DNA from: an uncultured bacterium | GTDB lineage: Bacteria > Cyanobacteriota > Vampirovibrionia > Gastranaerophilales > Gastranaerophilaceae | Assembly (NCBI GenBank): GCA_949300485.1 | Contig: CASGEL010000003.1 | Location: 124,001 to 188,000 of the forward strand | Length of the DNA: 64,000 nt | Reading direction: 5' to 3' | In this document: piece by piece, positions 15,958-51,523 of the stretch | How positions within the stretch are numbered: position 1 is the stretch's first letter | Layout: every line of letters starts with the position of its first letter | The notes under the pieces: generated by a model | The model's database searches: none | What the model was told of the DNA's origin: nothing | What the model saw: the letters and a program-made list of their open reading frames with translations, nothing else | Program-made: the position numbers and the translations under genes

Positions 15958-15996
15958 GAACCTTTTTGTGATACGCTAAAGAAAAAGGAGTTAAGT

Positions 15997-17808: not shown

Positions 17809-17824
17809 TGTAGGAATGTTTTGA

Positions 17825-18937: not shown

Positions 18938-18971
18938 AATACCATAGAGAAAATATTTTTATCAAGTAATA

Positions 18972-19205
18972 TCACATTTTCTCAATATACCAATTAGAAT
19001 TTCCAAAGTGATTAAAGTTCCATTGTAATTGGAAGTAGAAATTGTACTCCATTGAGTTATCATCTTTAAAGTTACAAGAATACTTATTTAGCTGTGTTTT
19101 ACAATAACTTTCAAAAGCTACTTTAATTTCTTTTGCAAACTTTTTTCTAAATTCTGGATATGTTACATTTAATGTTTCTTTTGTAAGTTTATTTTTTAGA
19201 ATCAT
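18972..19205 (-). CDS. Hypothetical protein, 77 aa
   Basis: I start it at the ATG at 19205 because GGAG lies 8 bases before it; the open frame extends to 19298, but those residues are unlikely. The protein has a charged first half (YPEFRKKFAKEIKVAFESY) and an aromatic C-terminus (FYFQLQWNFNHFG). No family recognised. It stands on the opposite strand to the defence genes, in front of the 74-aa gene. Confidence 0.5.
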   Translation of the reverse strand: MILKNKLTKETLNVTYPEFRKKFAKEIKVAFESYCKTQLNKYSCNFKDDNSMEYNFYFQLQWNFNHFGNSNWYIEKM

Positions 19206-19347
19206 TTTTATTCTCCAGTGATACAATAACTGCAAATTTATTTTTCGCATCTCATATTTTGTAGCAATATTCATCGCTCTAAACTTTTTAAATATCAAGC
19301 AAAACTATTCAAAAATTATCATTCAGACACGGTTGATAAAATTTATA

Positions 19348-19572
19348 TTATTTATCTAACGTATCAGAATAATTTATAAAAAACGCATATAATATATCAG
19401 CTTTGTGCCTAATCTCCTTAATAACAGGAGTAATATTTCTTAACTCCTCAATCTCATCTTGATTGTTACAAAAATAATCCACTACAACAATTGTGTTATA
19501 AATTTCTTCGACTAATTTTTCTACTTTTTCAAAATCTTCTTGCTTAATCTGATAAAATATCACTTTATCCAT
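19348..19572 (-). CDS. Hypothetical protein, 74 aa
   Basis: Starts with MDKVIFYQIKQEDFEKVEKL, an all-helical acidic small protein, ending YSDTLDK. AAAGGAGG lies 5 bases before the ATG, an ideal Shine-Dalgarno, so translation is likely. No family recognised. It is leftward and divergent from hsdR; the 121-base gap holds both promoters. Confidence 0.65.
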   Translation of the reverse strand: MDKVIFYQIKQEDFEKVEKLVEEIYNTIVVVDYFCNNQDEIEELRNITPVIKEIRHKADILYAFFINYSDTLDK

Positions 19573-19639
19573 ACAACCTCCTTTTTAGGTGTCGTATTCA
19601 TCACTCGAAAGATATTAACTATCAAGACAAATATAAAAC

Positions 19640-19669
19640 TTACACCATTATAAGATTTCATGATACAAT
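19640..19669 (+). promoter_or_regulatory. Candidate hsdR operon promoter
   Basis: TTACAC (19640-19645) and TACAAT (19664-19669) with an 18-base spacer, 24 bases before the hsdR ATG. GAGG precedes the ATG. Confidence 0.45.
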
Positions 19670-19693
19670 TATCACATAAGCTGCGAGGTCTTA

Positions 19694-22090
19694 ATGAATA
19701 AAAAAGAGTTATCAGAACGTGATATTTGTACAAAGTTTATAACACCTGCAATAATAAAATCAGGTTGGGATAAAGACTCGCAAATTAGAGAAGAAGTTTC
19801 TTTTACTGCAGGAAAAGTTATTGTTAGAGGTAAGCTTGTTTCACGTGGTAAAGGTAAAAGAGCCGATTATATTCTGTATTATAAAAACAACATTCCTTTA
19901 GCTGTTATTGAAGCAAAAGACAATAAACATAGTGTAGGAGCAGGTATTCAGCAAGCAATAGAATATGCTGAAACTCTTGATATTCCTTTTGTATTCTCTT
20001 CAAACGGAGATGCTTTTTTATTCCATGATAGAACGGTTGATTTAGGGAAAAAAGAAATTGAAATACCTTTGGATAAATTCCCAACACCTCAAGAATTATG
20101 GGAAAAATTTAAAAAATTCAAACAAATCGAAGATACAGAAACAGAAAAAGTTTACACCCAAAACTATCATAAAGATGTATCAGATAATAAAGAGCCAAGG
20201 TATTATCAAAGAATTGCAATTAATAGAGCTGTAGAAGCAATTGCAAAAGGACAAGACAGGGTTCTTTTAGTTATGGCAACTGGTACAGGTAAGACTTATA
20301 CTGCTTTTCAAATTATTTGGAGATTATGGAAAGCTAAGAAGAAAAAACGTATTTTATTCTTAGCTGATAGAAATATTTTAGTTGATCAGACCAAAAGTCA
20401 AGATTTCGCACCATTTGGCGATAAAATGACAAAGATTACAAAACGTCATATTGATAAATCTTATGAAATATATTTAGCCTTGTATCAGGGGATTACTGGG
20501 AATAATGAAGACAAAGACGCTTACAAAGAATTTTCAAAAGATTTCTTTGATTTAATTGTAATTGATGAATGCCATAGGGGAAGTGCTAAAGATGATTCCG
20601 CTTGGCGAGAGGTATTAGATTATTTTTCATCAGCTACCCAATTAGGTCTAACAGCTACACCAAAAGAAACAAAAGAAGTTTCCAATATCGAATATTTTGG
20701 CGAACCTATTTATACATATTCTCTAAAACAAGGTATTGAAGATGGTTTTCTTGCTCCATACAAAGTTATTAGACCGATAATTAATATTGATATGGATGGC
20801 TTAAAACTTCCAGAAGGTACAATTGATAAATATGGAAATGAAGTTCCTGATGAGGATTTTAATGTCAAAGATTTTGATAAGAAAATTGTTATTGATGAAC
20901 GAACAGAACTTGTCGCAAAGAGAATAACTCAATACTTAAAAAATAATAACAGATATGATAAAACAATTGTTTTCTGTACTGATATTGACCATGCAGCAAG
21001 AATGCGTCAAGCTTTGGTTAATGAAAATCCAGATATGGTAGCCGAAAATTCAAAGTATGTAATGCAAATTACAGGTGATAACGATGAAGGTAAAAAAGAA
21101 CTTGATAACTTTATTGATCCTGAAGTTACTTATCCTGTAATTGCGACGACTTCAAAATTAATGACAACAGGAGTTGACGCTAAGACCTGCAAACTTATAG
21201 CAATAGATAGCAATATTAATTCAATGACAGAATTTAAACAAATTATCGGTCGCGGAACCCGTTTAAGACCTGATTATGGCAAATGGTATTTTACTATTCT
21301 TGATTTTAGAGGTGTTACAAGACTTTTTGAGGATAAAGATTTTGATGGCGAACCTGTTCAGATAAAAGATGTAAAAGAAACTGAAGAAATGCCAAAAGAT
21401 GAGCAGACAAAAGAAGAAGTTGAAACTTTGCTTGATGAACTTCCTGAAGGAGAAACCGTTGTAGAAATTCCACCAAATATTGATATTACTGATGTTGAAA
21501 ACCCTACTAAAAAATTCTATGTAAATGGAATTGAAGTTGTACAAGTAGGTGAAAGAGTTCAGTATTATGGCAAAGACGGTAAATTAATAACTGAAAGTCT
21601 TGTGGATTATACCAAAAAGAATCTAAAAGCACAATTTGCGACAATGGATGATTTCATAAAAAAATGGTCAGAAGCTGATAAAAAATCTGCAATTATTGAA
21701 GAACTACTAGAACAAGGTGTAATGCTTGATGAATTAAGAGAAGAAGTTAAACAAAAAACAGGCAAAGACTTGAGTGTTTTTGATTTGATTTGCCATGTAA
21801 CTTTTGATGCCCCACCATTATCAAGAAAAGAAAGAGCAGAAAAAGTTAAGAAAAGAAATTACTTTGGTAAATATTCAGAAAAAGCAAGAAAAGTTCTTAA
21901 TGCCTTAATTGACAAATTTGCAGATGACGGTATTGAAGAGATTGAAAATAGAGAAATATTGAAATTTCAACCTTTTGATGAAATCGGGACGCCTATGGAA
22001 ATAATCAAAGAATTTGGCGGCAAAACCAAGTATGAAGAAGCAATAAAAGAACTTGAAAAAGAACTCTTTAATGATAACGAGGTAGCCTAG
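19694..22090 (+). CDS. hsdR: Type I restriction enzyme, R subunit
   Basis: Motor and nuclease subunit that translocates DNA and cuts unmodified DNA. 798 aa, in the size range of EcoEI-like R subunits. N-terminal nuclease core: Asp58 in RADYILYYK and Glu73-x-Lys75 in VIEAK. SF2 helicase: MATGTGKTYTAF (Walker A, about 193), IDECHRG (motif II, about 290), GLTATPKE (motif III), and IIGRGTRLRPD (motif VI). The end (after about 570) carries the coiled C-terminal domain that binds the methylase. It ends with TAG immediately followed by the ATG of the next gene. Confidence 0.97.
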   Translation: MNKKELSERDICTKFITPAIIKSGWDKDSQIREEVSFTAGKVIVRGKLVSRGKGKRADYILYYKNNIPLAVIEAKDNKHSVGAGIQQAIEYAETLDIPFVFSSNGDAFLFHDRTVDLGKKEIEIPLDKFPTPQELWEKFKKFKQIEDTETEKVYTQNYHKDVSDNKEPRYYQRIAINRAVEAIAKGQDRVLLVMATGTGKTYTAFQIIWRLWKAKKKKRILFLADRNILVDQTKSQDFAPFGDKMTKITKRHIDKSYEIYLALYQGITGNNEDKDAYKEFSKDFFDLIVIDECHRGSAKDDSAWREVLDYFSSATQLGLTATPKETKEVSNIEYFGEPIYTYSLKQGIEDGFLAPYKVIRPIINIDMDGLKLPEGTIDKYGNEVPDEDFNVKDFDKKIVIDERTELVAKRITQYLKNNNRYDKTIVFCTDIDHAARMRQALVNENPDMVAENSKYVMQITGDNDEGKKELDNFIDPEVTYPVIATTSKLMTTGVDAKTCKLIAIDSNINSMTEFKQIIGRGTRLRPDYGKWYFTILDFRGVTRLFEDKDFDGEPVQIKDVKETEEMPKDEQTKEEVETLLDELPEGETVVEIPPNIDITDVENPTKKFYVNGIEVVQVGERVQYYGKDGKLITESLVDYTKKNLKAQFATMDDFIKKWSEADKKSAIIEELLEQGVMLDELREEVKQKTGKDLSVFDLICHVTFDAPPLSRKERAEKVKKRNYFGKYSEKARKVLNALIDKFADDGIEEIENREILKFQPFDEIGTPMEIIKEFGGKTKYEEAIKELEKELFNDNEVA

Positions 22091-22624
22091 ATGGAAATTG
22101 CAAATTGGATAACAGCAATATCAACGTTAGTAATGGCACTTGCAACAATTGCCATGGCTGTATTTGCAGGTAGTGCTTTAAACTCTTGGAAAAAAGAAAT
22201 TAAATTAAAAAAGATTTATAGAATTAATAGAAATTATATAAAAACAATTGATGAGTTTTTAAAATTATTACATAATTATGAACTAATATCTAAAGAACAA
22301 GAAACTAGATATATATTAGAAAAATTATTAGAAGAAATAAATATAATATTATATGAATATAAGTTAGTTCAAAAAAATACTGAAACTGAATTTTTAAAGA
22401 ATCTAATATATTTTAAAGCGGTTATTAAAGAATACACAAAAATAAAATTTCAAAGCTTAAATTCAGGAGTAAAAGTTTATTATGAAAATTTTTGGGATGA
22501 CTATGCACCAATTCAAGAAAATGATGGTAATATTTCTTATACACAAGAATATGAAAAATTATTAAATAAATTAAATAATGCAAAAAAATTATGTGAGCAA
22601 AATATTTATAAATTTTACAACTAG
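22091..22624 (+). CDS. Membrane-anchored protein inserted between hsdR and hsdM
   Basis: 177 aa. One N-terminal hydrophobic helix (about 9-30, ITAISTLVMALATIAMAVFA) is followed by a Lys-rich, all-helical cytoplasmic part. No known domain. Its ATG follows the hsdR stop with no spacer, and it ends 11 bases before hsdM, so it is in the same transcript and probably coupled. It is not a known restriction subunit. Its form resembles the 260-aa protein between hsdM and hsdS and the 153-aa protein at 30705. Codon use is very A/T-rich, more so than hsdR. Confidence 0.8.
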   Translation: MEIANWITAISTLVMALATIAMAVFAGSALNSWKKEIKLKKIYRINRNYIKTIDEFLKLLHNYELISKEQETRYILEKLLEEINIILYEYKLVQKNTETEFLKNLIYFKAVIKEYTKIKFQSLNSGVKVYYENFWDDYAPIQENDGNISYTQEYEKLLNKLNNAKKLCEQNIYKFYN

Positions 22625-22635
22625 AGGATAACTAA

Positions 22636-24099
22636 ATGCCAAATATATCAAGTGTAATAAAATCAATACAAGACATAATGCGAAAAGATACAGGTGTTGA
22701 CGGTGACGCACAAAGACTGTCGCAAATCGTTTGGATGCTGTTTTTAAAAATCTTTGCTGATAAAGAAGACGAAGCAGAGATTATGAAAGATGATTATAAA
22801 TCTCCGCTTGATGAAAAATATCGTTGGCAAAATTGGGCTCAAGATGATGAAGGCTTAACTGGCGATGATTTAATCGATTTTATTAATAATGACTTGTTCC
22901 CGTACCTGCAAAACCTTGATAACGATTCAAATAAACAAGCTTTGATTATAAGTAACATTTTTCAAGATACTTATAACTATATGAAATCAGGCACACTGCT
23001 AAGACAAGTTATCAACAAAATCAATGAAATTGACTTTAATTCAAGTGAAGATAGACACCTTTTCAATGATATTTATGAGCAGCTTTTACAAAGCCTTCAA
23101 TCAGCAGGTAACGCTGGAGAATATTACACCCCAAGAGCCGTAACTCAATTTATTGTAGATATGGTTGACCCAAAACTTGGTGAAACTATCCTAGACCCTG
23201 CTTGCGGTACAGGTGGATTTCTTGCTTGTGCAATAGAACATTTGAAAAAACAAACTGATACAACAAAAGAAGGTGAAATCCTTAATAACTCTATATTCGG
23301 GATAGAGAAGAAACCTCTTCCTCATCAGTTGTGTACAACAAATATGATTTTGCACGGAATCGATACTCCAATAAATATCAAAAGAGATAATACCCTATCT
23401 AAACCGATTAATAATATTTCACCATCTGATAGAGTAAATTGTATTGTTACAAACCCTCCTTTTGGCGGAACAGAAGAAGACGGAATTGAAACAAACTTCC
23501 CATCAGCTTATAGAACAAAAGAAACCGCAGATTTATTTTTGCTCTACATTATTGCAAAACTAAAACCTCAAGGCAGAGTTGGAATAGTTCTTCCTGATGG
23601 AGCACTATTTGGCGAAGGTGTAAAAACAAGAATAAAAGAAAAACTTATGCAAGAATGTAATTTGCATACAATTATAAGACTTCCAAAGAGCGTTTTTGCA
23701 CCATACACATCAATTAACACAAACCTTTTATTCTTTACAAAAGGCGAACCAACTAAAGAAACTTGGTTTTATAGACTTGATATGCCAGAAGGGTATAAGA
23801 ACTTTTCTAAAACAAAACCAATGAAAAAAGAACACTTTAAAGAAGTTGTTGAATGGTGGAACGATAGAAAAGAAATCAATATTGACGGTTTTGATAAAGC
23901 TAAAAAATATTCAATTCAAGAAATCCAAGAAAGGAACTACAACCTTGATTTGTGCGGTTATCCTTATGAGGAAGAAGAAATCCTGCCACCTATGGAACTT
24001 CTGCAAAAATATCAAGAAAAACGTGCTGAGGTTGATAAAAATATTGATGATATCTTGAACCAAATTAAAATCATGATAGGGGGTATAAATGCCAATTAA
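22636..24099 (+). CDS. hsdM: Type I restriction enzyme, M subunit (adenine methylase)
   Basis: DNA N6-adenine methyltransferase and core of the M2S complex. 487 aa. The N-terminal helical domain is followed by EYYTPRAVTQFIVDMV (DNA-methylase entry), LDPACGTGGFLACAIE (SAM motif I, about 187-200) and TNPPFGGTEEDG (motif IV NPPF, about 272). The C-terminal region includes a hinge and NLDLCGYPYEEEE. It overlaps the next reading frame by 11 bases. Pairs with hsdR and hsdS. Confidence 0.97.
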   Translation: MPNISSVIKSIQDIMRKDTGVDGDAQRLSQIVWMLFLKIFADKEDEAEIMKDDYKSPLDEKYRWQNWAQDDEGLTGDDLIDFINNDLFPYLQNLDNDSNKQALIISNIFQDTYNYMKSGTLLRQVINKINEIDFNSSEDRHLFNDIYEQLLQSLQSAGNAGEYYTPRAVTQFIVDMVDPKLGETILDPACGTGGFLACAIEHLKKQTDTTKEGEILNNSIFGIEKKPLPHQLCTTNMILHGIDTPINIKRDNTLSKPINNISPSDRVNCIVTNPPFGGTEEDGIETNFPSAYRTKETADLFLLYIIAKLKPQGRVGIVLPDGALFGEGVKTRIKEKLMQECNLHTIIRLPKSVFAPYTSINTNLLFFTKGEPTKETWFYRLDMPEGYKNFSKTKPMKKEHFKEVVEWWNDRKEINIDGFDKAKKYSIQEIQERNYNLDLCGYPYEEEEILPPMELLQKYQEKRAEVDKNIDDILNQIKIMIGGINAN

Positions 24100-24871
24100 T
24101 TTAAATAATATTGATTGGCAAGATATAATTATACCTTTTGCTTCGGCTTTTGCAGGTGCATTTTTTGCATACAAATTTAATACTTGCAGCGAAAATAAAA
24201 AACTCGATGAAGAAAATTTTAAACAGTTTAATGTATTATTGAATCAAATCAATGTTGTATGGATGGCATTAATGAACTATAAAATAGTATATTTATCTGA
24301 AATTGAAAAATTATTAGATAAAGATCAGCAAAAAGCTGTAAGAAAAACAATACATCCTCCTAATATTATATTTAATGCAAATATAGAGGAAAATATTTTT
24401 TTAGCAAAATACAATTTTCAATTTTTATTGTTACTAAGTGAAATAGAAAAGCAGTCTTTACTAACTCAAGAAATGATACAATTTTGTCAACAACAATTCA
24501 ATGAAAATAATAATTGGGTTGCTTTACCGTTTGAGGAAGTGCAATCTAGTATCGAAACTTTTGAATCAACCAAAAACTTTGTAGATAAAGTTTTAGCTTA
24601 CTTATTACTATTAAGAGAAAAACTCTTAGAATGTAAAAACAGATATTTTAAATTTTTATATATGGACCATAGAGATATATGGATAAATCATAATTTTGAT
24701 TCTTTAATCCCAAATATAGGTCAATTTATAGAAATTACCAGTTTATCAGAAGCGATAGAACAGTCTTGGATGCAGCAGCTAAACTTATTAGATTATTTAA
24801 AACTCTATAAGGATAAGATAAGTTTTAAAATTAGTTCATTTTTAAAATTTATAGGAATAAACAATAAATGA
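24089..24871 (+). CDS. Membrane-anchored protein inserted between hsdM and hsdS
   Basis: 260 aa, overlapping hsdM by 11 bases and hsdS by 4 bases (ATGA). An N-terminal hydrophobic segment (about 12-27, IIIPFASAFAGAFFAY) is followed by a helical Gln/Leu-rich body with no domain I can name. Tight overlap on both sides indicates a fixed part of the operon, not a chance insertion. It could be a regulator or membrane anchor of the restriction complex, or a separate effector. A/T-rich codon use differs from hsdM. Confidence 0.8.
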   Translation: MPINLNNIDWQDIIIPFASAFAGAFFAYKFNTCSENKKLDEENFKQFNVLLNQINVVWMALMNYKIVYLSEIEKLLDKDQQKAVRKTIHPPNIIFNANIEENIFLAKYNFQFLLLLSEIEKQSLLTQEMIQFCQQQFNENNNWVALPFEEVQSSIETFESTKNFVDKVLAYLLLLREKLLECKNRYFKFLYMDHRDIWINHNFDSLIPNIGQFIEITSLSEAIEQSWMQQLNLLDYLKLYKDKISFKISSFLKFIGINNK

Positions 24872-26343
24872 AATCACAGGATTTAAAAAAATCAATATTA
24901 CAATATGCAATGCAGGGGAAATTGGTGCCTCAAGATCCAAATGATGAGCCAGCATCAGAACTTCTAAAACGAATAAAAGCTAAAAAAGAACAATTGATAA
25001 AAGATGGCAAAATCAAAAAAGAAAAACCTCTCCCACCAATCACCCAAGACGAGATCCCATACGACCTTCCACAAGGTTGGCAATGGGTAAGATTAGCCAA
25101 TATTATAAATTATAATATTGGAAGAACGCCACCAAGAAAAGAATCTGTATATTGGGATAATGATTATAATTGGGTATCAATTGCTGATATGATTGACGGT
25201 CAATATATTACAACAACAAAAGAAAAAGTAAGTCAGTATGCTTTTGATAAAAGTTTTAAAGGGCACATTGTCCCTAAAGAAACTTTAATAATGAGTTTTA
25301 AATTAACTGTAGGAAAAGTTTCTATTTTGGGTATTAATTCGTTTCATAACGAAGCTATAATTTCTATTTATCCTATTATAGATAATAATAACTCAATGAG
25401 AGATTATCTTTTCAAGTTTTTGCCATTAATATCACAAAATGGAAATACCAAAACAGCAATAAAAGGCAATACGTTAAATACAGAAAGTATAAATAATTTA
25501 TTAATTCCTCTCCCCCCACTGGCTGAACAAAAGAGGATTGCAGAGAGGTTAGAAGAGATTTTACCTTTGGTTGATGAATATGGCAAGAATGAAGAAATTT
25601 TATCAGAAATGAATCAAAAATTACCAAAACAAATCCGTCAATCAATTTTGCAATACGCAGTTCAAGGGAAACTTGTTGCACAAAATCCTCAAGATGAACC
25701 TGCATCAGAACTTTTAAAACGCATAAAAGCTGAAAAAGACCAACTGATAAAAGACGGCAAAATCAAAAAAGAAAAACCACTCCCACCAACCACCCAAGAC
25801 GAAATCCCATACGACCTACCACAAGGTTGGGAATGGGTAAAGCTTGGAGATTTATGTCAAATAAACCCAAGAAACTTTATTCCCGATACCACAGAATCTG
25901 GATTTATTCCAATGACACTTATAAAAGATGGTTTTAATAATTCGCATTCATTTGAAATAAGAAAGTGGTCTGAGATTAAAAAGGGATTTACACATTTTCA
26001 AAATAACGATATTGTAATTGCTAAAATTACACCTTGTTTTCAAAATCGTAAATCAGCTATTATTCAAAATTTGCCGAATGGTATTGGAGCAGGAACAACA
26101 GAATTACACGTTATTAGAGATAATACCAATATAATAAATATGAAATATTTATTATTGAATTTTAAAACAGAATATTTTATACAAAATGGTATTAAAATTT
26201 TTACAGGAACTGCTGGACAACAAAGAATCGGCAAAGAATACATTGCAAATTATTTAATACCACTTCCTCCACTAGCAGAACAAAAGCGAATTGTCGCCAA
26301 AGTCGAAGAACTCCTAAACCTCGTAAATAAATTGGAAGTATAA
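24868..26343 (+). CDS. hsdS: Type I restriction enzyme, specificity subunit
   Basis: Target-recognition subunit, 491 aa, with two TRDs. Each half begins with the same conserved block (SILQYAMQGKLVPQDP and SILQYAVQGKLVAQNP, running to DLPQGWQWV and DLPQGWEWV) followed by a TRD. Each TRD ends with the conserved helix IPLPPLAEQKRI. The near-identical blocks (24892-25090 and 25642-25840) would let TRDs exchange by recombination. Starts inside the previous gene (ATGA overlap). Confidence 0.95.
   Translation: MKSQDLKKSILQYAMQGKLVPQDPNDEPASELLKRIKAKKEQLIKDGKIKKEKPLPPITQDEIPYDLPQGWQWVRLANIINYNIGRTPPRKESVYWDNDYNWVSIADMIDGQYITTTKEKVSQYAFDKSFKGHIVPKETLIMSFKLTVGKVSILGINSFHNEAIISIYPIIDNNNSMRDYLFKFLPLISQNGNTKTAIKGNTLNTESINNLLIPLPPLAEQKRIAERLEEILPLVDEYGKNEEILSEMNQKLPKQIRQSILQYAVQGKLVAQNPQDEPASELLKRIKAEKDQLIKDGKIKKEKPLPPTTQDEIPYDLPQGWEWVKLGDLCQINPRNFIPDTTESGFIPMTLIKDGFNNSHSFEIRKWSEIKKGFTHFQNNDIVIAKITPCFQNRKSAIIQNLPNGIGAGTTELHVIRDNTNIINMKYLLLNFKTEYFIQNGIKIFTGTAGQQRIGKEYIANYLIPLPPLAEQKRIVAKVEELLNLVNKLEV
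24892..25090 (+). repeat. hsdS direct repeat, copy 1
   Basis: 199-base block encoding the first conserved region of HsdS. Aligned to copy 2 without gaps at a constant offset of 750 bases. Differences are mostly silent third-position changes. Confidence 0.9.
25642..25840 (+). repeat. hsdS direct repeat, copy 2
   Basis: Second conserved block, before TRD2. The run GGCAAAATCAAAAAAGAAAA is identical in both copies, long enough to seed homologous exchange. Confidence 0.9.
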
Positions 26344-26409
26344 ATTTGTTTTCTTTTTCTATGTTACTAGAATAGAGTTATAGAAACATAAAAAAACTGG
26401 AGATATTCA

Positions 26410-27165
26410 ATGAAAAAAAATAAAATCCTAAATCACATAAATAAATTAATAGAAGAAGGTAAAATTATACTAACAACCAAGTATTATTCAAATGGTGTTA
26501 TGGGTAATTTATGCTTTGTTAATGAAGAAAATTTTACAAGCTGGAAATGTCAAATAGAAATATTTCTTAATTCAAATCCTGCATTTGAAAATGTTTATAA
26601 CAATTTTACAAAAAAATATAGAATGTACACCAATTACAATTTCACAAACAGGTATATAAGTCTTTTACAGGGGTTAAAAACTTCTATTGAAGATGAAATT
26701 GTTATAGTCGATGATGATATAAAAAAAGAAACAAGTTTAAGTGAAGGCGCAAATGCTATTTTTATAGCTCATGGACACAGTAATTTGTGGAATGAGGTTT
26801 TAAGATTTTTAAGAGACGATTTAAATTTAACAGATGTTAACTATTTTGAAAAAGAATCGCAAACAGGACGTTCAATAGCGGATGCTTTGAGAGATTTTCA
26901 TAAAGAAACAGGATTTGCTATAGTTGTTATGACAGCAGAAGACGAAACAAGTACAAATACTAAACGTACTCGTCAAAATGTTATTCATGAAATTGGTTTT
27001 TTCCAAGGAAAACTTGGTTTTGAAAAGGTTGCAATACTTAAACAAGATAATGTTGAGTCATTTTCAAATATTGATGGAATACAATATATCCCTTTTTCAG
27101 GAGATAATATTAGTCAAACTTTTTATGAACTTCAAAGAGTATTAAAAAGAGAACATATTATTTAA
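26410..27165 (+). CDS. TIR-like nucleotide-binding protein (PF10137 type)
   Basis: 251 aa. The C-terminal half is the TIR-like fold annotated as predicted nucleotide-binding: AIFIAHGHSNLWNEV, then FEKESQTGRSIADAL, IVVMTAEDE, RQNVIHEIGFFQGKLG and the final LQRVLK. The N-terminal 110 residues are a helical domain that often accompanies it. Proteins of this family occur in anti-phage systems (CBASS-like and others), where TIR domains degrade NAD. Here no cyclase is adjacent, so the trigger is unknown. TGGAG precedes the ATG. Confidence 0.85.
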   Translation: MKKNKILNHINKLIEEGKIILTTKYYSNGVMGNLCFVNEENFTSWKCQIEIFLNSNPAFENVYNNFTKKYRMYTNYNFTNRYISLLQGLKTSIEDEIVIVDDDIKKETSLSEGANAIFIAHGHSNLWNEVLRFLRDDLNLTDVNYFEKESQTGRSIADALRDFHKETGFAIVVMTAEDETSTNTKRTRQNVIHEIGFFQGKLGFEKVAILKQDNVESFSNIDGIQYIPFSGDNISQTFYELQRVLKREHII

Positions 27166-28747: not shown

Positions 28748-29065
28748 ATGACATTGAATATTTTTGAAAAACGTATCAAGGCTTGGAATGAAAAATATCC
28801 GCCACTATCCCCTGAAATTCTACGTAAAATTAACAAACTTGTTGAACAGTATGACAAAACTCAACAAGTAGAAAAAGATTCTAAAGTTCTATCAATAACT
28901 GACGGGACAAAATTAGTCCGAGAATTTAAAGGTCGAAGATATACCGTACTTGTTTTACAAGATGGTTACGAGTTCAACGGTTCCAAGTATAAAAGTCTTT
29001 CTGCTGTTGCTAATAAAATTACAGGAACTCGTTGGAATGGTAAGAAATTTTTTGGAGTGGCATAA
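28748..29065 (+). CDS. DUF2924 protein
   Basis: 105 aa. Conserved features include RKINKLVEQYD near residue 27 and the C-terminal LVREFKGRRYTVLVLQDGYEFNG and GTRWNGKKFFGV, the DUF2924 core. This family is regularly found directly before large serine recombinases of mobile elements, as here, where the stop and the recombinase start overlap (TAATG). A role as recombination helper (for example a directionality or DNA-binding factor) is inferred only from this pairing. Confidence 0.88.
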   Translation: MTLNIFEKRIKAWNEKYPPLSPEILRKINKLVEQYDKTQQVEKDSKVLSITDGTKLVREFKGRRYTVLVLQDGYEFNGSKYKSLSAVANKITGTRWNGKKFFGVA

Positions 29066-30645
29066 TGGTAAAGAAAATCAGATGTGCAATTTATACTAGA
29101 AAATCCACAGAAGAAGGACTTGAACAAGATTTTAATTCTCTCGATGCACAAAGAGAAGCTTGTGAATCTTACATAAAATCTCAAAAACACGAAGGCTGGA
29201 GTCTTTTAACTAAAAAATACGATGATGGCGGATACTCAGGCGGTACAATGGATCGTCCGGCATTCAAACAACTTTTGCATGACATTGAAAATGATAAAAT
29301 TGATATTGTTGTAGTTTATAAAGTTGATAGGCTTACTCGTTCTTTGATGGATTTTTCAAAAATTATTGAGATTTTAGACAAGCACAACGCTTCATTTGTT
29401 TCCATAACCCAGCATTTCAATACAACAACTTCTATGGGACGATTAACACTCAATATTTTGCTATCCTTTGCGCAATTTGAAAGAGAAGTTACAGGAGAGC
29501 GAATCCGAGATAAGTTTGAAGCTTCAAGAAAAAAAGGGCTTTGGGTTAATGGTGCGACACCTTATGGCTACACGAAAGATGAACACCATATTCTACAACC
29601 TCAACAACCTTTCGCAGATAACGTTAAATTTATTTTTGAAGAATATCTCAAGGTTAAAAATGTTATTAAACTAAAAGAAAGCCTTAATCAAAAAGGGATT
29701 CTTTCAAGAACAGGAAAACCATTCCCAAAATCAAATTTGTATCGGATGCTCGCTAACAAAGTTTATTTAGGTAAAATCCCTCACAAAAACAAGGTCTATG
29801 ATGCTCAACATTCTCCGATTGTTTCAGAAGAATTGTTTAATGCAGTTCAAAATCTGCTACTTTTAAATGCAACAGAGCACAAACATACGACAAATGCAAA
29901 GATTGGCACTCTGTTATCAGGATTGCTTTATGATGATAAGGGTAACCTTATGTCTCCGACTTACAGCAAAAGTGGGAACAAGTTATACAGATACTATATT
30001 AGCCAAGCACTAAAAGATCCAAGCAGATGCGAGCGAGGTGATATTACCAAAATTTCAGCAGGTGAAATTGAAAAGTATGTAAAAGATGATTTGACAAAAC
30101 TTTTGCAAGATACATTATTTATCCAAAAATATTTAGAGAATTATTCAATCGAACAACAAACCAATATTTTAAATACAATGCACGAATTCAGCCCTGATAA
30201 AATATTTATCAGAACCGTTATAAAGCGTGTTGATTTGAAGTTAAATTTAATCAAAATCAGCTACGACATAAATTATATAATCCAATATTTTGCAACGCTG
30301 GCATTTAATGCAAAATTTACATATACCCCAGAAGATGAACAGATTTACACAAGAGAACAAAATGTCAGAATATCGTTAACTCCACAAAAGCAAAATAAAA
30401 TTATTATCCATGGAAAAGCTAATTATGATATGAAACTTATTCAAGCAATAGTAAAAAGCTTTTGGTACAACAAACTTGGAGCCGAAAGACGACTACCCCC
30501 AGAAGCCAGAAATGGAAACAATAAAAGATTGCGCAAACTAAGATTTTTGCCTCCAGAAATTATAGAAAGCATAATGAATGGAACCCAAGACCCTGAGTTG
30601 AATGTGAAAAAGCTTATTGCAATGGCTGATAAGTGTTGTAAATAA
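29065..30645 (+). CDS. Large serine recombinase (integrase)
   Basis: 526 aa. N-terminal resolvase domain with catalytic Ser14 (YTRKSTEEG), SLDAQREACESY, KVDRLTRSLMDF and TERIRDKFEASRKKG; then a recombinase domain (ATPYGYTKD, KLKESLNQKGILSRTGKPF). The following block KIGTLLSGLLYDDKGN and SKSGNKLYRYYIS is the zinc-ribbon-type region of this family, though I see no clear Cys pairs in it. The C-terminus ends near VKKLIAMADKCCK. It is intact, so it can account for integration of the element it belongs to, either the defence island or the prophage. Confidence 0.93.
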   Translation: MVKKIRCAIYTRKSTEEGLEQDFNSLDAQREACESYIKSQKHEGWSLLTKKYDDGGYSGGTMDRPAFKQLLHDIENDKIDIVVVYKVDRLTRSLMDFSKIIEILDKHNASFVSITQHFNTTTSMGRLTLNILLSFAQFEREVTGERIRDKFEASRKKGLWVNGATPYGYTKDEHHILQPQQPFADNVKFIFEEYLKVKNVIKLKESLNQKGILSRTGKPFPKSNLYRMLANKVYLGKIPHKNKVYDAQHSPIVSEELFNAVQNLLLLNATEHKHTTNAKIGTLLSGLLYDDKGNLMSPTYSKSGNKLYRYYISQALKDPSRCERGDITKISAGEIEKYVKDDLTKLLQDTLFIQKYLENYSIEQQTNILNTMHEFSPDKIFIRTVIKRVDLKLNLIKISYDINYIIQYFATLAFNAKFTYTPEDEQIYTREQNVRISLTPQKQNKIIIHGKANYDMKLIQAIVKSFWYNKLGAERRLPPEARNGNNKRLRKLRFLPPEIIESIMNGTQDPELNVKKLIAMADKCCK

Positions 30646-34071: not shown

Positions 34072-34599
34072 TTATATTTCGCCGTATTTTGCTTTGAACG
34101 CGTTTTCGACCATTTCCGCCGTTATTGTCACGTCTTCAAAAGTTATCGGCATTAAACTTTTTGCAACTCCGCAATATACATCACTGCAATATGTTAATTG
34201 TATTTTTACTTCTAAATTCGCCTCAAGATAAGCGTTTATTTGTTCTAAAGTTAACCCGAAGCCCTGCAATACTCCGATAAAATCAAGCGGGGTCATAGTT
34301 AGTTTATTGATTCGGATTTCTTCTTCTAATGCTTCCGCCTGCGCAATGGTTATCAATTGATAACCGTCGGGTATTTCGCCGTAATTCTCAATGTCGCAAA
34401 TTTCGCCGTCTTTAATCATTTTATGGGTAAATCTATAATCGTTAAAAATTTCCCATTCCTGCGAATCGCTGTCAAAAACTGCGACTTCATTTTCTTCAAC
34501 TTCTGGCGGTGCAATAGTTGTCAACCCCTCTTTAACTTCGGTTTCAAAAGGTAACGTCATGGAATATTCGCCATTTTCAAGATTGTAAGCATAAAGCAT
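34072..34599 (-). CDS. Internal in-frame gene: tail-associated protein, 175 aa
   Basis: An ATG at 34599 lies in the RT frame, preceded by AAAAGGAG 7 bases upstream, an almost ideal Shine-Dalgarno, better than that of the RT itself. The protein begins MLYAYNLENGEYS, like many tail-fibre-adjacent proteins. It contains an acidic central region and a C-terminal unit (MTPLDFIGVLQGFGLTLEQ to TAEMVENAFKAKYGE). The same residues also form the C-terminus of the RT. So a free 175-aa protein is probably made, with a minor RT-fusion form. Confidence 0.75.
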   Translation of the reverse strand: MLYAYNLENGEYSMTLPFETEVKEGLTTIAPPEVEENEVAVFDSDSQEWEIFNDYRFTHKMIKDGEICDIENYGEIPDGYQLITIAQAEALEEEIRINKLTMTPLDFIGVLQGFGLTLEQINAYLEANLEVKIQLTYCSDVYCGVAKSLMPITFEDVTITAEMVENAFKAKYGEI

Positions 34600-35652
34600 G
34601 TTTAACTCCTTTTCAATTTTATAAACTGATTTTCGCGCGTTTCTATGAAGCATTGACCCGCGCCACGAATCAAATGCCCTTTTTATTTCTTCGGCTGTCA
34701 TTTTGCCGTTATTATATAGCCGAATCATGCGTCGAAATCTGCGGCGCGCCCGTGTTATACTTTCACGGCTCGGTTTCTTGATTATTTTATTGCCTACGAT
34801 TTTATATCGAGTTTTTAAAAATTTAAAATGTTGAGTTAATGGAATAATTTTTGTCTTTTTTAAATTGATTACAATTCCTAAATCTGAATACATTTTAAAT
34901 AAAATCTTGGAAAAATTTTTCAATTTTTCTTTGTCTTCACTGATAATATAGGAGTCGTCCATATATCGACCGTAGTATTTAAAATTATGTTTTATAAAAT
35001 GGTCGATTTTATTTATGTATAAAATCGCGTTAAATTGACTTGTTTCACTCCCTAACCCTAACCCCTTTTTATAGGCTGTTATAAAGCGAATAACTAATTT
35101 TTTAACTTTTTCGTCTGTTAAATTTTTATTATAAAAATCAATTAACGGTTGATGTTTTATATTTTCAAAATATTTTGAAAAATCAATTGTTAAAATATAA
35201 CCGTTTTTATGTTTGCGCAAAAATTCCCGCAAATGTTTTTCTAATGTTCTGCTTGCAAATAATGTTCCTTTTCCGACTTGACTTGCTGAATTTTCTTTAA
35301 TGAACGAGCCTGCGAAACGGGGATTTAATATTTTAGAACATACCAATTTTTGAATAACACGCTCGGAAAACTTTAAACTTTGAATTTCGCGTCGTTTTCC
35401 TCTTTCACATATATAAAAATGTGTGAATCCTTTTCGGATGTCTTTTCCTTTTAATAAATCTGTTTTTAGCGCATAAATTTTAAATAAAATATTGATATTA
35501 AATCTTTGAACGCTTTGTTTCCATGATACAAGACGCGTGGATTGTTTAACCGCCTTGTATAATTCTTCAAGATTTGCAATTTGTTTAATATTTTCGGGCG
35601 GTTTTTGTCTTTTTAATGCCCGACGTTCACGCCTTTTGCTTCTTCTGCTCAT
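34072..35652 (-). CDS. Diversity-generating retroelement reverse transcriptase, fused in frame to a tail-type protein
   Basis: Reverse transcriptase that copies the template repeat and introduces adenine-specific mutations. Residues 1-345 are the RT: DFSKYF (157-162, motif A Asp), LGSETSQ (200-206, the SQ typical of DGR RTs), YMDD (230-233, catalytic Asp pair) and a basic C-terminal helix (RRFRRMIRLYNNGK). DGR RTs normally end here. Instead the frame continues without a stop into residues 352-526, which read like a separate phage tail protein and have their own start at 34599. The full product would be 526 aa. The start at 35652 has no clear Shine-Dalgarno, so expression may be low, as is common for DGR RTs. 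Confidence 0.93.
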   Translation of the reverse strand: MSRRSKRRERRALKRQKPPENIKQIANLEELYKAVKQSTRLVSWKQSVQRFNINILFKIYALKTDLLKGKDIRKGFTHFYICERGKRREIQSLKFSERVIQKLVCSKILNPRFAGSFIKENSASQVGKGTLFASRTLEKHLREFLRKHKNGYILTIDFSKYFENIKHQPLIDFYNKNLTDEKVKKLVIRFITAYKKGLGLGSETSQFNAILYINKIDHFIKHNFKYYGRYMDDSYIISEDKEKLKNFSKILFKMYSDLGIVINLKKTKIIPLTQHFKFLKTRYKIVGNKIIKKPSRESITRARRRFRRMIRLYNNGKMTAEEIKRAFDSWRGSMLHRNARKSVYKIEKELNMLYAYNLENGEYSMTLPFETEVKEGLTTIAPPEVEENEVAVFDSDSQEWEIFNDYRFTHKMIKDGEICDIENYGEIPDGYQLITIAQAEALEEEIRINKLTMTPLDFIGVLQGFGLTLEQINAYLEANLEVKIQLTYCSDVYCGVAKSLMPITFEDVTITAEMVENAFKAKYGEI

Positions 35653-35908
35653 AATATGTTATGTGTAGATAATACAAGACAATTGCGTCTTGACCTTTTT
35701 ATTATTTTTCCTACTAAACCGCCAAATATAAAACAAATATCAATCGGCTAAATTCTTTGCTATGCACGAATTAACGGCGAACATTTGTCGATTACATAAC
35801 ACCAATTTATGAACGATAATCGTTCAAAGGTCTTTCGTTCCTTTCGTATATTGGCGTTGATTTCGCTTTAAATTATTTTAAAGTTACTACGTCCAGCCTT
35901 ATAGAAAT
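35653..35908 (-). other. Leader between the template repeat and the RT gene
   Basis: No open frame. Contains two hairpins: TGAACGA/TCGTTCA near 35812-35828 and CAAGAC/GTCTTG at 35675-35692. In known DGRs a structured RNA next to TR is needed for cDNA priming, so these stems are candidates. Function inferred from position. Confidence 0.5.
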
Positions 35909-36008
35909 CCGAAGCACGCCGAAATGTTAGTATTCGTAGCATTGTTCTGGTTGACATTACCGTTCGCGTTGACATTGCACACATTCGTAGACGTATTACC
36001 AGACGGGT
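35909..36008 (-). repeat. DGR template repeat (TR)
   Basis: Aligned to VR (offset 608) with no gap. All 11 differences are T in the plus strand here, A on the coding strand. On the coding strand it is rich in AAT/AAC codons at the sites that vary. At its low-coordinate end the homology stops after CTTCGG (35908/36516 differ), the expected IMH-type boundary. It ends just before the Avd gene stop and lies upstream of the RT. Confidence 0.92.
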
Positions 36009-36023
36009 GTTATAACGAAAAAC

Positions 36024-36443
36024 CTATTTTGTTGTATATTTTCTTGTTGAATCCGACTTTTTCCATGCTTTTAATAAATTTAACTCAACGCATAATAAAT
36101 CAATAATTTTATCAAGACTTGAAATTGTAACCGAATCAACCGTCTTTTCTAATTTAACAATATAATTTTGAAGTTGAAAACAATTCGCAATCGCTTTGAC
36201 TTGATATTCTTTTCTTTGTTCGATTTCTGTTGTATTTGTCGGAAATATCGAATTTGCAAATGTTATATTGTCGACTAATTCATCAACTTTATTGATTATC
36301 GGAACGCCTATCAATAACCGATATTTTTTCGGGATAAATTTTTCTTTTGTGCAATATTTCGTCAATTCCGATTGTAATTCAAGCGCGTTTATTATAAATT
36401 GCGTTTCTGTTTCGCCTCTGAATCTTTTATAAACATTTGACAT
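36024..36443 (-). CDS. Avd-like DGR accessory protein
   Basis: 139 aa, all-helical. KYRLLIGVPIINKVDELVDN and NCFQLQNYIVKLEKTVDSV match the style of accessory variability determinant (Avd) four-helix bundles, which bind the RT and the RNA and are needed for mutagenic priming. It lies between the tail-fibre gene and TR, the usual place. Its stop is 16 bases before TR. Alternative: a related four-helix bundle protein of similar role. AAAGAG precedes the ATG. Confidence 0.8.
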   Translation of the reverse strand: MSNVYKRFRGETETQFIINALELQSELTKYCTKEKFIPKKYRLLIGVPIINKVDELVDNITFANSIFPTNTTEIEQRKEYQVKAIANCFQLQNYIVKLEKTVDSVTISSLDKIIDLLCVELNLLKAWKKSDSTRKYTTK

Positions 36444-36500
36444 TTTTATTTCTCTTTAATGTTCCGACCGCACGAGGCGGTCGGATTAATGATTGTTTGA

Positions 36501-37613
36501 TTAGCCAATACGAAAGCCGAAGCACGCCGAAATGTTAGGATTCGTAGCATAGCGCTGGGTGACACAACCGTTCGCGTTGACATAGCACACAATCGTAGAC
36601 GTATCACCAGACGGGCAACATAGCCAATAATTTGAGCGCGCGCCCGTATTTGCCCCGACTTTTGCCCTTGAATTATACATAAACAAAGGATATTGACGCG
36701 TCATATTTCGGGTTAAATTGTCAATATTCGCGCTTGCGTCGTTTGACCTGTTGTATGAATTTGGCTGATATCCGCAAACTTCCACTTCATGCGGTAGCCA
36801 TAATTTACCCATGTCAACCCAGTCATAACCAGACGGATAATTAACTTGTTTTGAAGCGTTATATTGTTTTTCCATCCAGTTACGTTTCTGAATCAATACA
36901 TTTTGACATTCAGTCGGTAACATTTGTAAAATACCGCCTGATGAACAATTTAAACCATGTTGTAAATTGCCTTGTGCTGATGTCGAATAATTATTAACCC
37001 CGTTTAATATTGCATAAAGTCTTGATGATTTATACGGGTTTTGTTCTGCTGACGTTCCGTTATTTGTATTTCCGCCGTTCCATGTAAAACAGGTTTCGAC
37101 GGTTTTTTCTGATATAAAATCTATATGGTGCGGGATTGGAGTATCACCCCAATTATAATATGTATCAATCCCCGCAACTTGCATTTTATGCTGTTGATTT
37201 GCGCTTATTTGATATTCACCGCCGATTGTTCCGCCTGTAAGAGTAACAGGGATATAGTCGCCGATATGTATTCCCGAAAAATTAGCGGATTGGATTCGTG
37301 CTTTTATCCATGCCCATACATTCCCGCTATAAGAAGAATTGATTTCGCTTGCATGTTTAACCGATAAATCAACGGGGGTATATAATCCGTCTGTTACTGA
37401 ACGAATTAAATTCATTGCAGAATCTGACAAATTGTCAAAATCTTTTGTTGCGCTTTCCCCGCTTAATGTTGATACTGATTCGTCCAATTCTCCAACTTTT
37501 TCGTCTATTTTATCCCAATTGTCGTTTAAATCACGGTCGAATGAAAAAGTATCGTTGCTATCCGTTGCCATATTGGTTTTATACAAATTCAAATTTTCGG
37601 TATAAGTCCCCAT
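36501..37613 (-). CDS. Tail fibre/receptor-binding protein with DGR-diversified C-terminus
   Basis: 370 aa. N-terminal 70 residues attach to the baseplate (NLYKTNMATDSNDTFSFDRD, a phage fibre start). The middle has Gly/Asn/Ser-rich strands. The C-terminal domain (about 270-370) resembles a C-type-lectin/DUF6273-like receptor domain, with LWLPHEVEVCG, YWLCCPSG and ending ISACFGFRIG. The last 33 residues lie in VR. Variable positions (Asn in TR) fall in this region: TR asparagines are Asp, Ile, Tyr, Cys, Thr, Arg and Tyr here. The gene lies after the DUF2313 baseplate gene. Confidence 0.92.
   Translation of the reverse strand: MGTYTENLNLYKTNMATDSNDTFSFDRDLNDNWDKIDEKVGELDESVSTLSGESATKDFDNLSDSAMNLIRSVTDGLYTPVDLSVKHASEINSSYSGNVWAWIKARIQSANFSGIHIGDYIPVTLTGGTIGGEYQISANQQHKMQVAGIDTYYNWGDTPIPHHIDFISEKTVETCFTWNGGNTNNGTSAEQNPYKSSRLYAILNGVNNYSTSAQGNLQHGLNCSSGGILQMLPTECQNVLIQKRNWMEKQYNASKQVNYPSGYDWVDMGKLWLPHEVEVCGYQPNSYNRSNDASANIDNLTRNMTRQYPLFMYNSRAKVGANTGARSNYWLCCPSGDTSTIVCYVNANGCVTQRYATNPNISACFGFRIG
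36517..36616 (-). repeat. DGR variable repeat (VR)
   Basis: 3' end of the tail-fibre gene. 89 of 100 positions equal TR. Differences are at 36539, 36551, 36553, 36554, 36559, 36565, 36566, 36584, 36592, 36605 and 36616, and each corresponds to a template A. The final codons (ending ISACFGFRIG) carry the invariant IMH-like end. Confidence 0.93.
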
Positions 37614-37626
37614 TGTTTTATTCTCC

Positions 37627-38247
37627 TTATTCTACATAACAAAATAAATTTTTCTTGGTTGATTCCATTTCGGCTTTTGTCATAACGCCGTTTATATCTT
37701 TTTTAAGCAAAAAGTTATATATCCACGAAACGATTAAATAAGCGGGTTTAAAATCATCAACCATTGATTTTAAATTATCCAAATCGGGCGGGATTCCGTA
37801 TTCGCTTATAAATTCAATTCTTATTATTCCGTCATTGACAAAACGTTCTTTTTTATATGTTTCCATTTCGCCTTTTGTTAAAATATTATTGATTTCGCCT
37901 TTACGAATAGCCCTGTAAAAATCAACCTTAACTTGACCGTTTCGCCATGCGTCGCAAATATCTTGAATTAATTTAACGTCGTTATGTCTGCTTGCATTCC
38001 ATTTTGCTTGAATTTTTGAACGTCTGTAAATCAAATCGTTATCGGTCGGAGTTATTTTTAAATGATTTTCCCACCACTTTGCGCCGTTTTCGTCTAAACT
38101 ATCAAAAAAAATATTGTTCTTGATAGAATCGCAAATCATACTTATATTATTAAATACTTTTGAAACGGCTTCGGTAAAATCGTTTATAAACGGGTCTTTT
38201 CGATAAACTGCATTTATAAGCGCAATAATTTCGTCTTTTATTGCCAT
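37627..38247 (-). CDS. Baseplate/tail protein, DUF2313 (YmfQ/XkdU type)
   Basis: 206 aa. DUF2313 features: a helical N-terminal part with NDLIYRRSKIQAKWNASRHNDVK and the later EYGIPPDLDNLKSMVDDFKPAY. In Mu (gp48) and PBSX (XkdU) this protein finishes the baseplate wedge and precedes the fibre gene, as here. Start has GAGGAATAACAGGC-ATG. Stop is at the fibre's Shine-Dalgarno. Confidence 0.85.
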   Translation of the reverse strand: MAIKDEIIALINAVYRKDPFINDFTEAVSKVFNNISMICDSIKNNIFFDSLDENGAKWWENHLKITPTDNDLIYRRSKIQAKWNASRHNDVKLIQDICDAWRNGQVKVDFYRAIRKGEINNILTKGEMETYKKERFVNDGIIRIEFISEYGIPPDLDNLKSMVDDFKPAYLIVSWIYNFLLKKDINGVMTKAEMESTKKNLFCYVE

Positions 38248-38252
38248 GCCTG

Positions 38253-39509
38253 TTATTCCTCGATTTCTGTTACTGATAATTCACTTAAAACAGCGATTTC
38301 AACTAATAAATCAGTATCGGACAATTGAATATTTGCCGTTCCGCCGTTTATAGTTAAATTCTTATAGTCTGCCACACCCTCTGAATCAATGACGCATGAC
38401 CCGATTTTTGCATAACTGATATATGTATCAGTAAAAACGGTTGATTTTAAATATTCATTTATTTTGTTTTGAATATTTGTTGTAACGGTTTCTTTATCGT
38501 AACCGCTTTTAATATCAACCGCCACCGCAATTGCAAGATTTTTTGCTGTTGCGCTTTCTACTGTTGTATATGCACCGACGGACGCTTGTCCGTTACCATA
38601 TCCCCAACCGTATTTTATAGCAGAAGTATAGGAAAATTCGTCCGCTTCGGCTGTTTTTATAACTGTTTGCAAATCGTAGTTAGAATATACTTTTTCGCCT
38701 GCTTGGACGCCGTTTTCGTTATAATTCTGAACATATCCCGTTATTGTTCCGTTTGATACTTTATACCCGTACGGGTCAATGTATTTTTGAACATCATTAA
38801 CAAGCGTATTGTCTGCAATTTCTTTATTTGCATTAATTATAACAATCTTGACGGTATTATTGCCGTTCCATGTCGGTTTAATTTTCGCGTCACCAACGCC
38901 CGTGACTTCTTTTGCCCATTTTTTATAATGATTAATATTATTTGATGTTATCGGCTGTTGTATATCTTCTAAATATCTTTCAATAATGGATTCTTTTGTT
39001 TCTTTGTCATAACCGCCAGACATCGCATTCGGATTTGTAACTGTTGCTATTCCTGCGATACTCACGGGAATAACCGCAATCGAATTAGACGGAACATTGC
39101 CGACCGTTCCCGCCGTTACGCATTCAACGGTAATCGTCCCCGAATTAACAATCGTTTTTGTTTCGATTGCTTGAAATTGCAATCCCGATTCGGTTTGAAA
39201 CAAGTCCCCGATTTTAATTGTTCCGTTACCTGTCACGGTTAGTGTTCCCGTTGCTTTTTGCGCTTCATGTGCAATAATTCCGCGTCTTTGCTTAACAAAT
39301 TTAACAAGGTCGTCATATTCAAAATTATTAATATCGCCTAATGAACAAACATATTTTAATTTTTCGTAAATTTTTTCTAACGCGCCGATTGCGATTGCAC
39401 GTGCATAATCCCATGCAATAAAACCTACGCTTTTTTGATAGTCTGACGGCAATTCTTGTAAAATATCCGCCGTTATTTCTTCATTTGTTTTATTAACAGT
39501 TATAAACAT
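38253..39509 (-). CDS. Baseplate J-like protein
   Basis: 418 aa, XkdT/Mu gp47-type baseplate wedge. Strands rich in Val/Ile/Thr (TVECVTAGTVGNVPSNSIAVI) and the conserved GGYDKETKESIIERYLEDIQQP followed by KWAKEVTGVGDAKIKP. Lies directly between DUF2634 (5 bases) and DUF2313 (5 bases). Needed for contractile tail assembly. Confidence 0.93.
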   Translation of the reverse strand: MFITVNKTNEEITADILQELPSDYQKSVGFIAWDYARAIAIGALEKIYEKLKYVCSLGDINNFEYDDLVKFVKQRRGIIAHEAQKATGTLTVTGNGTIKIGDLFQTESGLQFQAIETKTIVNSGTITVECVTAGTVGNVPSNSIAVIPVSIAGIATVTNPNAMSGGYDKETKESIIERYLEDIQQPITSNNINHYKKWAKEVTGVGDAKIKPTWNGNNTVKIVIINANKEIADNTLVNDVQKYIDPYGYKVSNGTITGYVQNYNENGVQAGEKVYSNYDLQTVIKTAEADEFSYTSAIKYGWGYGNGQASVGAYTTVESATAKNLAIAVAVDIKSGYDKETVTTNIQNKINEYLKSTVFTDTYISYAKIGSCVIDSEGVADYKNLTINGGTANIQLSDTDLLVEIAVLSELSVTEIEE

Positions 39510-50289: not shown

Positions 50290-51523
50290 TTTCTTTTTTA
50301 CTCCCTTGCTTTTCGCTTTCTTTCGCATTATCAACCTTTTGATATTTATCTGCCTTTGATATATCAACATAGTTTAATGACATTAGATGTTTGTCTGCAA
50401 AATCTTCTTTGATTTTTGGCATTTCCATAATTTCGCATGCCTGATTTATGCTATAAATACCTAATGGCATTAGTTTTGATATGACATCGGCTTTTGTTGC
50501 ATTACTAGCAAAAGTCATTCGTTCCGCTGAAAATACAATTTCGTTTCCATGCCCGATTTCTTTATCAGTAAAAGTTTTATAGGTAAATTCAAGCGATAAT
50601 TGAATCGCTATCGGTTCAATAACAGAAGAATAAAACGCGTTGTATTCTTCTTCGTTATAGGTCGAACGGACAATGTTTTCAGACACATTAAAGAATCTGT
50701 ATATGTTTTCACGTGCAATAGTTGTTTGTTTGTCGTCCGCCGTCTGGGGTTCAACTTTAAGTTCTTTAAATTCTGCCGACGGGTCAAGTGTTGCGATTCC
50801 GTCCGCATTGTTAATATTCAAATAGGAACTAACAAATTCTTCTTTTACTCTTTTTTGTTTATCGGCGGGCGTTACTGTTGCAAATTGCAATAAACCGCGA
50901 AGCCCTGCGGATAATTTTATCGAATTGATTATCCCTTGATTTATCGCTGTTAAAACGTTTAAGGGTGCTTGCAATGCTTCGCGCTGTGCTGACCCGAAAA
51001 TATCATTTTCGTTAAAATGACGTCTTATATGTATTAAATCTTCATAGGGTAAAACAACTTTTTTGCTATTCAAGAATAAAAATTCGACATACAATTCGCC
51101 TTGATATTCTAACAACCGCAAATTTGAAAAGTTAATCGGATAATATCCGACTATCTGTCCGAATCCGTCACGATGAATATATACAAATGAATTATTGCAA
51201 CATAATAATTGCGTTACGATTTTATATACAAAATCATAAGCATTCATATATTGATTCGGTCTTAACGTCAATAAACGGTTTAAATTATCATTTATTACGG
51301 TTCTTTCTTTTCGGTGTTGCGGTTTTAATTTTGCGCAATTAGAAGCAATAGCATGAATACAACTTCTTATTGTCGAATCGTTGTATATATCGCCGTTAAA
51401 ATTCGTTATATGCGCGAACATCTGATTTATTAACTGAAAATTTGTCGCGCCTGCGATTTCACTTTTTGCGTTTTTCCCGAAAAAGGATTGATATAAATTT
51501 CTTAATTCAAAATTTTTAAACAT
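50222..51523 (-). CDS. Portal protein, HK97 family
   Basis: 433 aa. Forms the dodecameric ring through which DNA is packaged. Family landmarks: DFVYKIVTQLLCCNNSFVYI, YYPINFSNLRLLEYQG, and the central LKLSAGLRGLLQF-type region with QKRVKEEFVSSYLNI. The acidic C-terminus (ENGTTEKYSEDKK) overlaps the protease start. Its own start overlaps the terL stop by 8 bases. Confidence 0.93.
   Translation of the reverse strand: MFKNFELRNLYQSFFGKNAKSEIAGATNFQLINQMFAHITNFNGDIYNDSTIRSCIHAIASNCAKLKPQHRKERTVINDNLNRLLTLRPNQYMNAYDFVYKIVTQLLCCNNSFVYIHRDGFGQIVGYYPINFSNLRLLEYQGELYVEFLFLNSKKVVLPYEDLIHIRRHFNENDIFGSAQREALQAPLNVLTAINQGIINSIKLSAGLRGLLQFATVTPADKQKRVKEEFVSSYLNINNADGIATLDPSAEFKELKVEPQTADDKQTTIARENIYRFFNVSENIVRSTYNEEEYNAFYSSVIEPIAIQLSLEFTYKTFTDKEIGHGNEIVFSAERMTFASNATKADVISKLMPLGIYSINQACEIMEMPKIKEDFADKHLMSLNYVDISKADKYQKVDNAKESEKQGSKKENDATNESENGTTEKYSEDKKDA

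Follow-up and report, generated by a model that had tools for sequence, protein, structure and literature searches.

The window, as the whole 64,000-nucleotide stretch of DNA analysed here is called, almost certainly contains a complete phage diversity-generating retroelement (DGR) with the layout of that in BPP-1, in which adenine mutagenesis templated by the template repeat (TR) is directed at the tip of a tail fibre. A complete DGR targeting a phage tail fibre had been proposed in a preliminary description of the sequence, and this proposal is supported by the presence of TR and the variable repeat (VR), a reverse transcriptase (RT), the accessory variability determinant (Avd), an IMH boundary, a hairpin, and a structured spacer RNA (Table 1). 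The order on the coding strand is baseplate J, Gp48-like, fibre with VR, hairpin, avd, TR, spacer RNA, and RT, and this block is embedded among genes of a contractile-tailed prophage (sheath, capsid, portal, and terminase). The element is conserved in this anatomy and in its A-only substitution, and sister elements vary at A sites. The DGR itself is ordinary for specialists; the additions are the fusion of RT to an assembly protein, the assignment of the spacer to the Rfam family RT-2, and a hairpin loop other than GRNA.

Table 1. Features of the element and adjoining tail genes (positions in the window).
Feature	Position	Strand	Description
Tail-fibre-assembly protein, 175 aa	34072..34599	(-)	In-frame with RT; PHROG 105 'tail fiber assembly'
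DGR-type RT, residues 1-351 of a 526-aa ORF	34600..35652	(-)	LGLGSETSQ, YMDD
Structured spacer RNA	35665..35901	(-)	Rfam RF03077 RT-2; between TR and RT
TR (template repeat)	35909..36008	(-)	Between avd and RT
avd, accessory variability determinant, 139 aa	36024..36443	(-)	PHROG 3206 and predicted fold
Hairpin/cruciform candidate	36463..36485	(-)	9-bp stem, loop CTCGT, just past the fibre stop codon
Target gene, tail-fibre protein, 370 aa	36501..37613	(-)	ORF; VR at 3′ end
VR (variable repeat)	36517..36616	(-)	11 differences from TR, every one at a TR adenine
IMH-like invariant 3′ end of VR	36517..36538	(-)	CTAACATTTCGGCGTGCTTCGG; TR and VR identical there
Gp48-like tail protein gene	37627-38247		Just ahead of the fibre gene on the coding strand
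Baseplate J gene	38253-39509		Ahead of the Gp48-like gene on the coding strand

Template and variable repeats

Base-by-base comparison aligns TR and VR without gaps at an offset of 608, with 11 differences in 100 positions; at every one, the + strand of TR reads T, which corresponds to A on the coding (-) strand. The coordinates, offset, count, and A-specificity reported earlier for the pair were reproduced exactly. TR has A at 29 of its 100 positions, and the probability that 11 of 11 random differences would land on A is 2.4e-7. Excluding the terminal position (36008, the extreme edge of the repeat) leaves 10 differences in 99, with P = 8e-7 for all of them being on A.

Within codons, 16 of these adenines occupy position 1, 13 position 2, and none position 3. 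A stop codon cannot be reached by A mutation from any TR codon, and free mutation at all 29 adenines was computed to yield about 10^16.5 protein variants with zero stops. The mutable template adenines fall mostly in Asn codons. Comparison of VR with TR confirmed the earlier list of codon changes, in which Asn is converted to Asp, Ile, Tyr, Cys, Thr, Arg, and Tyr, and added a Thr to Pro change that was missing from it. A search of the whole 2.05-Mb genome recovered TR and a single VR, with no second VR or further copy.

Related DGRs were detected in three IMG/VR phages (L030, L003, and L028), a Gastranaerophilales MAG (L006), five related genomes (L008, L009, L010, L109, and L110), Roseburia phage Shimadzu (L027), and two human-gut phage scaffolds (L118 and L123). 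Over 13 TR/VR pairs, in which only runs of identity were used to delimit the repeats, TR adenines coincide with 169 of 171 differences, although they account for only 395 of 1450 TR positions. Differences at non-A template sites, named in the preliminary description as an observation that would speak against a DGR, do not occur inside the window repeat. The comparison of VRs among relatives that it recommended is provided by L109 and L110, which differ at 108 of 3245 aligned columns, none of them in TR; their VRs differ at 16 positions within 70 bases, and all 16 correspond to adenines of the identical TRs. This pattern supports probable retrohoming activity among the relatives. No near-identical phage was found in IMG/VR with which VR polymorphism or the fusion junction described below could be checked. 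In addition, two tail genes of L006 are each preceded by a near-identical repeat about 110 bases long (773-918 and 1882-2027), which is not a TR/VR pair.

Proteins, spacer RNA, and hairpin of the cassette

The RT is matched by Pfam RVT_1 (1.6e-18) and PHROG 1423 (E 1.6e-67). The best solved relative of its profile is the BPP-1 DGR RT (8ub7, E 7.6e-25), followed by a group II intron maturase (7e-13). The motifs LGLGSExSQ and YMDD are invariant in nine aligned RT sequences, so that the SQ-type RT with YMDD read from the sequence earlier is borne out, and the loss of catalytic motifs in related copies, which had been raised as a possible objection, was seen in none of the nine.

Avd is matched by PHROG 3206 ('Avd protein of DGR', E 4.6e-5), as are eight of nine Avd homologues. 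Since a comparison with PDB sequences did not match BPP-1 Avd, the fold was compared instead. The model obtained from eight homologues (pLDDT 80) is a four-helix bundle that superposes on BPP-1 Avd (4dwl) at 1.7 A over 107 residues (Z 14.1). However, 2gsc and the S23-family protein 2rld score slightly above 4dwl and unrelated helical bundles nearly as high, and the predicted fold match is therefore regarded as supporting evidence only. Profile and model agree with the Avd-like helical protein that had been noted beside TR.

With regard to the target, the location of VR at the 3′ end of a gene adjoining Baseplate_J and Gp48-like genes in a contractile-tailed prophage makes a receptor-binding fibre the natural reading. 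The relatives of this protein are 61-79% identical and all have VR at the 3′ end. A C-type-lectin fold is usual in DGR targets; the fibre structure model (pLDDT 41) is unusable, and matches to DUF6273 are below cut-off (six of nine homologues, best E 4.6e-5).

A large serine recombinase with Resolvase and Recombinase domains (window 29065-30645), likely the integrase, lies at the prophage edge. A second, unrelated terminase large subunit and a ParB/DNA methyltransferase gene (11582-14823), apart from the terminase at 51516-53237, are probably the remnant of another prophage. The stretch between host genes and the prophage (15457-27165) was judged by eye to be a possible defence island, with a type I restriction-modification-like system (19694-26343), a macrodomain-like protein, and a TIR-like nucleotide-binding protein (26410-27165).

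The spacer matches the RT-2 covariance model over its full length with 48.8 bits (gathering score 40). This match is the evidence of structure; the folding energy of the spacer by itself is not significant (z -1.4). RT-2 was also detected at 60-170 bits in L008, L009, L010, L027, L028, L030, L109, L110, and L118, just short of the gathering score in L006 (35 bits) and L123 (39.5 bits), and weakly in L003 (24.5 bits). In the window and its relatives, the RNA always begins 6-15 nt past the TR core, ahead of RT. Sub-cut-off RT-2 matches in L116 and L117, where no DGR TR/VR or RT adjoins, were taken as chance. Two other Rfam signals were recorded in the relatives, an abiF RNA just after the assembly gene in L028 (9609-9645) and, below threshold, a match to the twister-P1 ribozyme in Roseburia phage Shimadzu (9257-9308).

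The families RT-2 and RT-14 were named solely after their RT neighbour. The equivalent place in BPP-1 is occupied by Rfam Phage_DGR (RF03022), and that in Bacillus phage BalMu-1 by RT-14 (RF02921); RT-2, RT-14, and Phage_DGR share the position between TR and RT (window 35665-35901; L118 1195-1420; L120 1310-1453; L124 2750-2882). According to a 2026 paper (PMC12875486), in which the BPP-1 DGR was reconstituted in laboratory E. coli, the spacer of BPP-1 is folded and brings in the RT-Avd complex. Because RT-2 lies where Phage_DGR lies in BPP-1 and the BPP-1 spacer recruits RT-Avd, RT-2 is best read, by analogy, as the spacer within DGR template RNAs of the present subgroup, and RT-14 appears, from one example, to be a DGR spacer RNA likewise. 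The literature searched contained no prior account of RT-2 as an RNA of DGRs, and priority is not claimed.

At the 3′ end of the repeats, the identical 22 bases are followed by diverging flanks, which read ATTTCTATAAGG beside TR and CTTTCGTATTGG in the fibre gene (past 35909 and 36517, respectively). In the window as in the relatives, the first base past the identical end is a C on the VR side and an A on the TR side. From 35908 and 36516 downward, A and non-A positions are both hit; this flank divergence is the expected IMH*/IMH boundary, as in BPP-1, and does not contradict A-specificity. A 14-bp GC-only run like that of BPP-1 is absent at the window IMH.

The hairpin was equalled in none of 300 shuffles of its region, with the same result for each of nine relatives, and an inverted repeat is present between the fibre-gene end and avd in all ten loci (8-13 bp stem, 5-7-nt loop). 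Stem sequences vary while pairing is kept, as in CCGACCGC, CCGCCCAC, and CCGGCTAC, each with a CTCGT loop. In BPP-1, such a hairpin is required for efficient retrohoming, and phage DGR hairpins have been described with 7-10-bp stems and 4-nt GRNA loops (Guo et al. 2011, PMC3240598). The GRNA loop is the consensus of that study for phage DGRs and is not essential to the definition of the DGR family. It is replaced by the 5-nt CTCGT in the window hairpin, and because eight of the ten loci have 5-nt loops (CTCGT, CTTGT, TTCTT, TCTAT, and TTTAT), the present subgroup departs from the consensus.

Fusion of RT to an assembly protein and rival readings

The stretch 34072-35652, which had been read as an RT and would be annotated automatically as a single long RT, is one ORF of 526 aa. 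Residues 1-351 are indeed RT, while residues 352-526 represent a predicted phage tail-fibre-assembly protein; searched alone, this part matches PHROG 105 (E 5.6e-7) and adjoins the DGR cassette of the fibre gene. Separate homologues in L030, L028, L006, and L003 also match PHROG 105. The two genes are separate in all four of these close phages, overlapping by 17 bases in different frames in L030, L003, and L006 and by 4 bases in L028. Nor was the fusion found in any other genome among the 98 searched with RT or the 241 searched with the assembly part. Relative to L030, a one-base difference in an A-run between the Shine-Dalgarno sequence and the ATG of the assembly gene joins the frames. The assembly gene retains its own Shine-Dalgarno sequence and internal ATG (34599), and the added domain begins after the RT end of relatives, with no RT residues removed. 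In L004 and L005 (near 5806-6290), a homologous assembly gene directly follows a fibre-like gene where no DGR is present, which suggests that an avd-TR-RT cassette was inserted between the fibre gene and its assembly gene.

Because a ribosome-binding site and start codon of its own are still present in the assembly gene, the likeliest origin of the fusion is a single-base change that is recent and nearly neutral, or else an error of sequence assembly. The latter, under which the true genome would have separate RT and assembly genes and the DGR would be wholly ordinary, is a serious possibility, somewhat short of an even chance, as the frames are joined, relative to L030, by one base more or less in a short run of A, and a second copy supporting the fusion was not found; on the other hand, the run consists of only 3-4 A, where short-read assemblies are seldom wrong, and the cassette has no other signs of error. 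It is rather unlikely that the element is a once-active DGR now in decay, with the RT or the assembly protein damaged by the fusion and VR frozen as a past product. The fusion is unique to the present genome and all four close relatives retain separate genes, as such decay might suggest, but no other damage is seen in RT, Avd, TR, spacer RNA, or hairpin, the added domain lies beyond the RT end of relatives at no cost in RT residues, and the start signals of the assembly gene are preserved. Very improbable is a real and useful fusion, in which tethering of the RT would couple mutagenesis of the fibre gene to fibre folding or assembly. If true, a hypermutation enzyme would be physically joined to its own product, an arrangement of which no earlier description was found.

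It could also be supposed that the repeats arose by simple duplication and drifted apart by chance beside another kind of RT, such as that of a group II intron, a retron, or a defence system. Duplication can produce a repeat pair of 100 bp, and the RT has weak matches to group II and defence RT models. However, such an origin is practically out of the question given A-only differences, codons lacking A at position 3, adjoining Avd and spacer RNA, an RT profile nearest to DGR RT, and the same pattern in 12 other loci; A-specificity in 13 loci rules out both chance and plain duplication. A complete phage DGR remains the preferred reading of the window element.

Comparison with known elements

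Briefly, by analogy with BPP-1, the avd-TR-spacer-RT region would be transcribed and the spacer RNA would recruit the RT-Avd complex. RT would then copy TR RNA into cDNA with misincorporation opposite adenines. The IMH (the 3′ end common to both repeats) and the hairpin just beyond it would direct the mutated cDNA to the tail-fibre gene, where it would replace the 3′-terminal VR. As TR would be unchanged, the process could be repeated, and the outcome would be a fibre tip variable at up to 29 template adenines. RNA priming, retrohoming, and an effect on receptor tropism may be expected of the window DGR from the same analogy, and we infer that it is currently active and changes host range or tropism.

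These observations add a well-supported DGR for phages of non-photosynthetic gut relatives of cyanobacteria and outline a subgroup, with RT-2 spacer RNA and a 5-nt hairpin loop, that reaches phages of Bacillota. RT-2 and, by one example, RT-14 could be used for finding DGRs, and the 5-nt loops probe the reach of the GRNA loop rule derived from BPP-1.

The closest relative found, IMG/VR phage 3300026522_001170 (L030; RT 77%, Avd 80%, and fibre 73% identical), matches the window in the gene order of the entire cassette and its flanking tail genes and in the CTCGT hairpin loop; it differs from the window in its unfused RT and tail-fibre-assembly genes. Roseburia phage Shimadzu (LR596903) is more divergent (RT 48%, Avd 45%, and fibre about 36% identical). 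It shares the fibre-Avd-TR-RT order, CTCGT loop, A-specific TR/VR, and RT-2 RNA (144.9 bits), whereas a short hypothetical protein follows its RT and the assembly protein is unmatched.

The BPP-1 DGR (mtd-avd-TR-brt, NC_005357) resembles the window in its annotated gene order, with TR between avd and RT, and in having a single VR located 3′-terminally in a tail gene, an IMH boundary, a post-VR hairpin, a structured spacer RNA, and A-specificity. On the other hand, its RT and Avd are only distant relatives of those in the window, the spacer RNA belongs to RT-2 in the window and to Phage_DGR in BPP-1, the hairpin loop is 5-nt CTCGT rather than 4-nt GRNA, and the window element, unlike BPP-1, is without the GC-only 14-bp element and has its RT fused to a tail-fibre-assembly protein.
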